DNA from: Desulfobacterium sp.
Lineage (GTDB): Bacteria > Desulfobacterota > Desulfobacteria > Desulfobacterales > Desulfobacteraceae
DNA: 64,000 nt
NCBI GenBank assembly: GCA_030145245.1
Contig: JAQYWC010000069.1
Span: forward strand, 62,001-126,000
Direction of reading: 5' to 3'
The first letter of the stretch is position 1. Each line of letters begins with the position of its first letter. The notes beneath the pieces are model-generated. The model saw only the letters and a program-made list of their open reading frames with translations. It searched no databases and was not told where the DNA came from. A program made the position numbers and the translations under genes. Below are positions 2,169-5,370 of this stretch, one piece after another.

Positions 2169-3365
2169 ATGGATAAAACAAAAGGATGCGGGCAGGATGG
2201 GCACCTTTCCCACCAGGGCCTGAAATTGTCCACCTCGGGTGTCAATATCATGGCCTCCATGGAGGGGCGGGACCCGTCCTGTTCAAGCCTGGTCAAGGAT
2301 GCCCTGGCGGATCATGAAAAGCCAGGGTTTAAGCTGTGTTCATATGTGGAAAGGTTCAGCGAAACCCATGCAGGGCCCATCCCCATCATCAAATCCGGGC
2401 TTGGAAAGGATGACCTTTTTTCAACCTTTCATGTCCGGTGGGGCATCCATCGCCTTAATTATACGGTGGCTCCTGGGCTCTATGGTATTGGGAATCCGGG
2501 CAGGACCTCTGAGGTGCTTGTCACTGCAAATTTCAAATTGACCTTTGATCACTTGAGGAAGGCGCTTCCCCACACCAGTGCATGGATTCTGGTGCTTGAT
2601 ACAAAAGGGATCAATGTCTGGTGTGCGGCAGGAAAGGGGACCTTTTCAACCCGGGAGCTTGTGAAAAGAATTGAGGACTGCTCCCTTGAAAAGATTGTGG
2701 ATCATAAACGGGTCATTGTTCCCCAGCTTGGCGCGACGGGTGTATCAGCTGTGGATGTTAAAAAACAGTCCGGATTCAGGGTCGTATACGGCCCGATCCG
2801 GGCCAGAGATATCCCGGCCTTTTTTAAAAACAACCGAAGGGCTGACCAAAAGATGCGGCAGGTCTCCTTTACTCTCTATGAGCGGTTTATCCTGACCCCG
2901 GTGGAGATTAAAAATGCGCTTAAGCCGGCCTGTATTACATCCCTTGTCCTGTTCGTCGTTTCAGGCTTGGGGCCGGGCGGGTTTTCTTTCTCCGGGGCCT
3001 GGGAGAGGGGCCTGCTCTCTGTTTTGGCCCTTGCTACAGGCATATTCTCAGGTGGATTTGTCACACCGGTATTGCTGCCCTATATTCCATTCAGAGAATT
3101 TGCCGCCAAAGGGATCATTACCGGAAGTGTCTTTGCCATACTCCTGATGGTTGCGGTTTCACCGGCCATCAACGGGATGGCCGGGTCTGGGGCTCTTTTT
3201 CTGTTCAGCCTGGTCATCAGCTCCTATCTTGCCATGAATTTTACAGGAACGACCCCATTTACGTCCCCATCCGGGGTTGAAAAAGAGATGAAGCGGTTTA
3301 TCCCTGTGCAGGTGGCAGCCCTGGCGGTGTCCACCGGTCTTTGGATCTGTTCCGCATTTAAATGA
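2169..3365 (+). CDS. hgcA: HgcA, corrinoid protein of mercury methylation
   Basis: HgcA transfers a methyl group from its corrinoid cofactor to Hg(II), with HgcB supplying electrons. The diagnostic cap-helix motif NVWCAAGKGTF is present, with the cobalt-ligating Cys at residue 152 from the chosen start. Flanking family signatures are RWGIHRLNYTVAPGLYGIG, VPQLGATGVSA, FRVVYGPIRA and NFTGTTPFTSPSGVEKEM. Five membrane helices fill the C-terminal third, as in characterised HgcA. I chose the ATG at 2169 because AGGAGA lies 7 nt upstream; an upstream ATG at 2136 lacks a good site. From this start the protein is 398 residues, with about 60 residues more in front of the cap helix than in the well-studied Desulfovibrio protein, so an internal start (Met28) is possible. 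hgcB follows after 19 bp. Confidence 0.96.
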   Translation: MDKTKGCGQDGHLSHQGLKLSTSGVNIMASMEGRDPSCSSLVKDALADHEKPGFKLCSYVERFSETHAGPIPIIKSGLGKDDLFSTFHVRWGIHRLNYTVAPGLYGIGNPGRTSEVLVTANFKLTFDHLRKALPHTSAWILVLDTKGINVWCAAGKGTFSTRELVKRIEDCSLEKIVDHKRVIVPQLGATGVSAVDVKKQSGFRVVYGPIRARDIPAFFKNNRRADQKMRQVSFTLYERFILTPVEIKNALKPACITSLVLFVVSGLGPGGFSFSGAWERGLLSVLALATGIFSGGFVTPVLLPYIPFREFAAKGIITGSVFAILLMVAVSPAINGMAGSGALFLFSLVISSYLAMNFTGTTPFTSPSGVEKEMKRFIPVQVAALAVSTGLWICSAFK

Positions 3366-3384: not shown

Positions 3385-3672
3385 ATGAAAGAGTTGCGAT
3401 ATCTGGATAACGTAGCAACCCTGGTACTTGACGAAGAAAAATGTATCGGTTGCAGCCTCTGCACTGAAGTTTGTCCCCACGCTGTTTTTGAAATGAAGCA
3501 GAACAGGGCCTCGATTGTTGATCTGAATGCATGCATGGAGTGCGGGGCCTGTGTGAACAACTGTCCTTCCGGTGCAATATCCGTCAGTCCGGGGGTGGGC
3601 TGAGCCATCTATATTATCCAGGTCTGGATAAAAGGAAAAGAGAACGCCTCCTGTGGCGATGGCTGCTGCTGA
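3385..3672 (+). CDS. hgcB: HgcB ferredoxin, predicted selenoprotein (TGA at codon 73 read as Sec)
   Basis: HgcB is the 2x[4Fe-4S] ferredoxin that reduces HgcA. Cysteines 20, 23, 26, 30 and 50, 53, 56, 60 form the two clusters. Codon 73 (3601-3603) is TGA, directly after the conserved PGVG. The same frame then runs AIYIIQVWIKGKENASCGDG and ends Cys94-Cys95 followed by TGA at 3670-3672. In the family the length is 95 residues, Cys73 follows the GVG motif, and the C-terminus is a vicinal Cys pair; all three are met only if the TGA is read through. A SECIS-like hairpin sits 3' of the TGA. The ribosome site AAGGGGG lies 7 nt before the ATG. If no Sec insertion occurs, the product is a 72-residue truncated ferredoxin lacking the proposed Hg-binding cysteines. 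A point mutation TGC/TGT to TGA is the alternative. Confidence 0.85.
3614..3631 (+). promoter_or_regulatory. Predicted bacterial SECIS hairpin in hgcB mRNA
   Basis: Perfect 6-bp stem TTATCC/GGATAA with apical loop AGGTCT. An A-U pair can shorten the loop to GGTC. The AGGTCT begins 17 nt after the TGA; in E. coli fdhF the same AGGTCT is the SelB-recognised loop, at nearly the same distance. A G in the first two loop positions is the bacterial SECIS hallmark. selB, selA and tRNA-Sec are not in this window. Confidence 0.8.
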
Positions 3673-4015
3673 CACTGCCGAAATGCCTGAATCCGTGTAC
3701 GTCCTTCAGGGTAGGGGGGAGGCAGTAAACCTGTTGTTTTTCCAGGTTAATTGCCCTATACTGAATTCATCTCAGAGCATGAATCGCCGGACTTCCCACG
3801 TTCCACTTTTTGCTGTGGTTTATTCATACATTAACCTTATAGACGTAAAAATATGTGTGAGTGTCATGAAAAAATCTTTTCAAAAGGGGTATATGAAAGT
3901 TCCCATACAACGCCTCCTTAAAGGCTCTTCAGAGCTTGAAAGGGGGCTTGGCTCAACAGGTGTTCGCTTGTGAAGCGAATAAACTGGCACGGAGATGAAC
4001 AAAGGGAGATGGGAA
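3673..4015. other. Intergenic region, no gene seen
   Basis: 343 bp between hgcB and the CNBD protein. The only open frames read through hgcB's tail or have no ribosome site. A short inverted repeat TTCGCTT-gtg-AAGCGAA lies at about 3963-3979, shortly before the next gene. No clear terminator after hgcB was found. Confidence 0.5.
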
Positions 4016-4480
4016 ATGATTGCAAAAGAGATAGACCTTTTTAAGGGAATAGATTTTGCCGTGATGGAGCAGATAACAGAGAGCTGCATTGGAGAGTCTT
4101 TTGAACCGGGAACCACATTGTTCAAAAGGGGGGAGAATGCAGAGGCGCTCTATATCATAGAAGAGGGGACCCTCAAGCTGGAGGTTGAGGATGGAAGTTC
4201 CCTGACCTTTAGTCTGACAGATCCCGGAACCTTATTCGGCTGGTCCAGTCTGGCAGAGTCAGGCAAATACACGGCTTCCGGAATCAGCGTTACGGATTTA
4301 AAGGTTGTTAAGATCAAAAAGAGACAACTGGAGAAGATTTTCAAGCAGCATCCGGATGTCGGGCTTAAAATCATGCGGAGGATGGTGGATGTGTTTTCAA
4401 GCAGGCTTTCAAATGCATACCAGGCCTATTTGGATCTTCTCTCTTTCCAGGATTCACAGCCGGTTCCTTCCTATGGTTAA
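4016..4480 (+). CDS. Stand-alone cyclic-nucleotide-binding-domain protein (Crp/Fnr sensor domain without HTH)
   Basis: The 154 residues consist of one cNMP-binding beta-roll: FEPGTTLFKRGENAEALYII, then the LFGWSSL turn that forms the phosphate-binding cassette, then a C-terminal helix (LEKIFKQHPDVGLKIMRRMV) like the dimerisation helix of Crp proteins. There is no helix-turn-helix domain afterwards, so it is unlikely to bind DNA itself. I chose the second ATG (4016) because GGGAG stands 7-8 nt before it; the upstream ATG at 3995 has its GGAG immediately adjacent. It is followed by a hairpin, so probably a single-gene unit. Ligand is unknown; the canonical R in the phosphate cassette is not obvious, so cAMP binding is doubtful. 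Confidence 0.75.
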   Translation: MIAKEIDLFKGIDFAVMEQITESCIGESFEPGTTLFKRGENAEALYIIEEGTLKLEVEDGSSLTFSLTDPGTLFGWSSLAESGKYTASGISVTDLKVVKIKKRQLEKIFKQHPDVGLKIMRRMVDVFSSRLSNAYQAYLDLLSFQDSQPVPSYG

Positions 4481-4680: not shown

Positions 4681-5370
4681 ATGAAAAAGTATGGTGCTGA
4701 ATTTATCGGGACATTCTGGCTGGTACTTGGCGGATGCGGCAGTGCCGTGCTGTCCGCAGCTTTTCCTAATGTCGGCATTGGCTTGCTTGGCGTTTCCCTT
4801 GCTTTTGGACTGACAGTACTGACAATGGCCTTCGCCATTGGACACATATCCGGCTGCCACCTTAATCCGGCAGTTTCTGTGGGGCTTTGGGCAGGCGGCC
4901 GGTTTCCGGCAAACCAACTTCTGCCGTACATCGTGGCCCAGGTTCTGGGCGCCATTTTTGCCGGTGGCGTTCTCTTCCTCATTGCCAGCGGACAGGCCGG
5001 CTTTGACCTGTCCGCAGGTTTCGCATCAAATGGTTACGGTGTCCATTCCCCTGGTGGATATTCCCTGTTTGCCGCCCTGGTCTGTGAGATTGTCATGACC
5101 ATGATGTTTCTTCTGGTCATTCTTGGTGCCACCGACCCGCGTGCACCCCAGGGGTTTGCTCCCATCGCCATCGGCCTCTGTCTCACCTTGATCCATTTGA
5201 TCAGCATTCCTGTGACCAATACCTCCGTAAACCCCGCGCGCAGCACGGGGGTAGCTGTTTTCGCAGGGGATTGGGCGATTGTCCAGCTCTGGCTTTTCTG
5301 GGTGGCACCGATTGTCGGCGGCCTGCTTGGTGCGGCCATTTACCGTTTCATTGGCAGTAGCAAAAAATAA
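4681..5370 (+). CDS. aqpZ: Aquaporin Z-type water channel
   Basis: A 229-residue MIP-family protein with six membrane helices and both NPA half-helices: HLNPAVSVG (about residue 60) and VNPARSTG (about residue 182). The selectivity residues around the second motif (NPARS) and the short loops match water-specific AqpZ rather than glycerol facilitators. Start is at the ATG with AAAAGGAGAAGAGT directly upstream. It is convergent with pepF, only 37 bp apart. Role: rapid water flux across the inner membrane during osmotic change. Confidence 0.92.

Follow-up and report, generated by a model that had tools for sequence, protein, structure and literature searches.

One of the closest described counterparts of the protein analyzed here is HgcB of Desulfovibrio desulfuricans ND132, which in the accessible parts of PMC7305189 has two Fe-S motifs, a reactive residue at position 73, and the terminal cysteines Cys94 and Cys95. 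Cys73 marks the start of a helical extension and is proposed there to take methylmercury from the tail cysteines, and the model organism loses methylation when it is replaced by Ala. Selenocysteine (Sec) forms are also on record. In its accessible parts, a 2026 review (PMC13188914) tabulates HgcB with the motif GVGU (NF040864, example WP_250697400.1), credited to Haft and Gwadz 2023, together with HgcA with the motif CU, credited to the same authors and a second reference; the accessible text of PMC11588087 likewise says that selenoproteins may be among the homologs of hgcA and hgcB. Sec-containing HgcB is thus already known and not new, and the sequence-only reading, which took it as not known, was mistaken on this point. 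In the accessible literature combining HgcB with selenocysteine, selenoprotein, selenium, or UGA, we found no report of selenium measured in HgcB.

The gene described here lies in a 64,000-nucleotide stretch of a Desulfobacterium sp. contig, the whole of which we call the window. Its product shares with the ND132 protein both Fe-S motifs, the reactive position 73, and the terminal cysteine pair; the difference is at position 73 itself, where ND132 has Cys and the window's protein is predicted to have Sec. From the GVGU form, as far as the accessible parts of the review describe it, it shows no difference that we can name: Both belong to the same family, with Sec right after GVG.

Codon 73 of hgcB and the read-through product

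The hgcB gene, for a dicluster ferredoxin, occupies positions 3385..3672 of the forward strand, with an ATG start codon at 3385 and a terminal TGA at 3670-3672. Its codon 73 (3601..3603, forward strand) is a TGA, very probably encoding Sec, directly 3′ of the codons for PGVG; translation past it gives AIYIIQVWIKGKENASCGDGCC and ends with the vicinal pair Cys94-Cys95 (3664..3669, forward strand). The predicted product has 95 residues with Sec at 73, and its translation contains two CxxCxxCxxxCP motifs, the reactive residue 73 (Sec for Cys), and the C-terminal cysteines. With C put for the TGA, it scores 123.9 bits against NCBIfam NF040864 (cut-off 99 bits), matching model positions 1-93 of 93. 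Translation and this full-length match confirm the initial description of the gene, which had a TGA at codon 73 after PGVG, 95 residues, and a Cys-Cys end. In a search of the genome (6.4 Mb, 83 contigs, 99.6% complete) that reads through stops, the same gene scores 119.4 bits, with one TGA inside, and is the only one of 68 matches above the cut-off.

Upstream, and separated from hgcB by 19 bases, is hgcA (2169..3365, forward strand), encoding the corrinoid protein of mercury methylation (NF040863, 425.8 bits; cut-off 275 bits). The open reading frame was called from 2136, and we read the ATG at 2169 as the start, since it has the better ribosome-binding site. The corrinoid-ligand motif of this HgcA, NVWCAAGK, has an ordinary Cys. 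Among 80 HgcA loci, some from the same genome, the motif was found in 75, each time with Cys rather than Sec; it was not found in the other five. Downstream of hgcB are genes for a cyclic-nucleotide-binding-domain protein (3995-4480) and a MIP-family channel (4681-5370).

Aligning HgcB homologs with TGA allowed in column 73, as the sequence-only reading had recommended, yielded 84 rows with TGA, which reduce to 59 genes distinct over 210 bases (the window's among them), and 119 further distinct genes with TGC or TGT; because all of these genes are mutually related, the counts are not independent. The Cys-Cys end is present in 54 of the 59. The in-frame TGA at codon 73 is more than chance, since its column otherwise holds a conserved Cys, no further stop intervenes before the Cys-Cys end, and 59 genes share it. 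One mark of a bacterial selenoprotein is a TGA that stands in frame where homologs have Cys, with homology continuing through it, and hgcB has it.

A conserved hairpin and the selenocysteine machinery

Ten bases past the TGA is a SECIS-like hairpin of 7 bp (TTATCCA-GGTC-TGGATAA; 3614..3631, forward strand) with the loop GGUC; counted from the TGA, the first loop G is base 18. All 59 distinct TGA-73 genes have this hairpin in perfect form, and all 119 Cys-73 genes lack it. Its loop in the Sec genes is GGTC (47), GGTT (six), GGGC (two), GGTG (two), GGTA (one), or AGTT (one). The hairpin of Escherichia coli fdhF shares the window's loop (AGGUCU in fdhF) at almost the same distance, its GGTC starting at base 19 after the TGA; it belongs to a different gene and has a different stem, with a contiguous apical stem of 4 bp compared with 7 in hgcB.

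Because the stem is invariant, it offers no covariation, and the argument for the hairpin rests on frozen synonymous sites. The Ile codons 77, 78, and 82 are ATT, ATC, and ATA in 59 out of 59 Sec genes, whereas among Cys genes with Ile at these positions ATT is used in 19 out of 79, ATC in 66 out of 105, and ATA in eight out of 45. Among the 39 conserved columns that allow synonymous alternatives, these three codons show the least synonymous variation. Part of the stem does follow from the protein sequence: The inner five pairs occur at the same place in 17 of the 119 Cys genes, none of them with a GGT loop. One of the 14 Cys genes compared first (L083) has an unrelated hairpin of nine pairs further on.

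For ten TGAs in the window, the frame is open before and after the codon and a hairpin of at least 5 bp with a GGT loop lies at the right distance; the hgcB TGA has the longest stem of these (7 bp vs. 5 or 6). Three of 504 control TGA ends have a stem of at least 7 bp with a GGT loop at an hgcB-like distance; the controls are the TGA ends of open reading frames of at least 150 codons on either strand, some of which are not real genes. Stem length alone is an unspecific measure, because E. coli fdhF reaches just 4 bp by it, as do 18 of the 504 controls. The folding energy of the hairpin is ordinary (z = −0.84, with 39 of 200 shuffles as stable; z = −0.99 for a longer stretch), and we dropped folding energy as evidence by itself. 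An Rfam search with the hairpin gave no match up to E = 5.

The genome encodes the complete set of factors that the initial reading had listed for checking: tRNA-Sec (75.7 bits; cut-off 47), selA (601 bits), selB (363 bits, on the same contig as the window), and selD (373 bits). The selD gene (L094, G000:C33:156-1079) has an in-frame TGA of its own followed by a GGT-loop hairpin and is itself likely a selenoprotein gene. In the near-relative set, selB is above the cut-off in 23 of 25 TGA-73 genomes and in 10 of the 11 Cys-form genomes of the order; it is therefore permissive rather than distinctive. The two TGA-73 genomes in which selB was not found above the cut-off are G400, which is 78% complete, and G418, which is in 1270 contigs and in which tRNA-Sec was not found either.

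The proposal that Sec replaces Cys73 is supported by a column in which Cys and TGA alternate, by the conserved hairpin of SECIS type, by the genes of the Sec machinery, and by recurrence within and beyond the family. On these comparative grounds the UGA at codon 73 is very probably read as Sec, and we are confident that the window's hgcB encodes a selenoprotein, a full-length HgcB with Sec at 73. SelB would bind the hairpin just downstream from the UGA and bring Sec-tRNA to codon 73. HgcB would then be made full length, with a selenol at the site of the essential Cys73 thiol and the usual Cys94-Cys95 tail.

Selenium binds mercury very tightly, and general chemistry indicates that a selenol at position 73 would hold mercury more tightly than a thiol. 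With the published HgcAB model as a guide, the selenol probably assumes the acceptor or transfer role of Cys73 while binding mercury more tightly, and it could, as the sequence-only reading suggested, alter the chemistry of methylation. Because HgcB is required for methylmercury formation and selenium binds mercury so tightly, the natural occurrence of both Cys and Sec at this essential residue makes its role testable. Selenium supply might influence methylation in these sulfate reducers. In addition, gene finders ignorant of Sec would truncate hgcB of this group at codon 73.

Distribution and descent of TGA-73 genes

Among 58 near relatives, 36 have hgcB: TGA-73 is present in 24 out of 24 genomes of the window's family and, among the 12 genomes outside that family but within the order, in G442 only, with Cys in the remaining 11. 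In a sample of 389 genomes of the order, 165 have an hgcB match, 48 of them in the window's family and 117 in other families. All 46 hgcB genes counted for the window's family (the 48 matched less G739 and G742) have TGA-73, compared with at least eight of the 117 genomes from other families, which contribute nine genes (G442, G474, G504, G515, G555, G564, G610, and, twice, G654). The last of these assemblies, with 8% contamination, has two different TGA-73 hgcB genes (L215 and L216).

Across a sample of 395 genomes of the phylum, 116 have an hgcB match, and TGA-73 is found solely in the window's genome, as judged from the search's stop counts and a reading of the rows with TGA; the match in one genome (G247) ends before position 73. 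In five other genomes of this sample, a TGA lies within or beyond the hgcB tail. Among named genomes, the best 80 of 547 HgcA loci gave 66 hgcB genes, 18 with TGA and 48 with Cys; the other 14 loci gave no hgcB by the search pattern, and the 18 TGA genomes partly overlap the other samples. TGA-73 hgcB is present in two culture-collection strains, Desulfospira joergensenii DSM 10085 and Desulfocicer vacuolatum DSM 3385, which makes the prediction directly testable. No relatives were found encoded on viral contigs, where one stretch matched a pattern.

In an HgcA tree of 87 rows chosen from 149 (38 of them Sec), the Sec rows form one side of a branch with SH-aLRT support of 100. Sec genes of other families are placed inside this clade, an indication of transfer or of contaminated bins. 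One genome of another family, G564, was missed in this tree by the motif; it has a Sec-type hgcB end beside an HgcA that groups with the Cys forms (L249, G564:C6). A second HgcA tree with G564 added has 67 rows, after omission of the more distant rows and exclusion by name of six from the order. It places G564 among the Cys forms, so that two changes are required, even when just the well-supported branches are used; an AU test of this data set does not reject a single Sec clade (P = 0.277).

In the G564 hgcB, identity to Sec genes reaches 94% over the 48 bases past the TGA but no more than 70% to any of them over the 156 bases in front of it. Perhaps local recombination brought TGA and hairpin together into this gene, although Sec genes are alike past the TGA anyway (84% mutual identity on average) and the AU test does not reject one Sec clade.

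Other readings of codon 73 and TGA codons in the HgcB tail

The simplest other reading takes the TGA as a true stop, which would leave an HgcB of 72 residues without Cys73 and the tail. This is what the standard code prescribes, and the 72-residue frame appears in the mechanical list of open reading frames. However, the residues past the TGA are conserved, with a Cys-Cys end in 54 of 59 genes, the synonymous sites within the hairpin are frozen, and the residue that would be lost is essential in the model organism according to the accessible parts of PMC7305189; we consider a true stop very unlikely. An error of sequencing or assembly at codon 73 might be suspected, as there is one record for the window's gene and many of its relatives come from metagenome assemblies, but the identical TGA in 59 distinct genes, including those of the two culture-collection strains, makes such an error exceedingly improbable. 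Reading of TGA as an amino acid throughout the genome would likewise account for a TGA in frame, and has a negligible chance of being correct: Both hgcA and hgcB of the window end at TGA, and the Sec machinery is present.

UGA recoding generally competes with termination. Both products could accordingly be made, part of the UGA events terminating and part inserting Sec, with selenium supply tuning the amount of full-length HgcB and methylation; the 72-residue form would retain both Fe-S motifs. We regard such a dual output as rather unlikely, though it adds to the selenoprotein explanation and is compatible with it. Sec at position 73 of a full-length HgcB is the reading that we adopt.

We also observed TGA codons in the tail of HgcB. 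In G418 (L076/L098, G418:C158:7122-7397), an hgcB with TGA-73 has a second TGA in its tail (ASCUDSGCC), where its relatives have Gly. In G039 (L081, G039:C86), a TGA takes the place of the third Cys in the CCC tail of two relatives from the same genus. Both TGAs lack a suitably placed GG-loop hairpin, and we do not claim them as Sec codons.

The third case is in G265 (L096/L084, G265:C363:1537-1818), where an HgcB with Cys73 has an in-frame TGA in its tail (PPDU); by eye, a relative of the same genus, G059, has a tail Cys opposite it (PPQC). The other two members of its family with hgcB (G123 and G151) do not have this TGA, and the G265 assembly is in 650 contigs with 6% contamination. A tail Sec site is not among the entries in the accessible parts of PMC13188914, and Sec in the HgcB tail is possibly a new variant, seen in this one other genome. 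Tentatively, and on comparison of sequences, HgcB may have taken up Sec at two mercury-handling sites, position 73 in the window's group and the flexible tail in G265, from another lineage of the phylum, though we hold this to be less probable than not. If it did, both ends of the mercury relay would favor selenols. Both G265 and G059 have tRNA-Sec, and the G265 tail TGA is followed by a hairpin of 6 bp with the loop GGTCC starting at base 19 past the TGA; 6 bp with a GGT loop is reached by four of the 504 controls, three tail TGAs having been examined.
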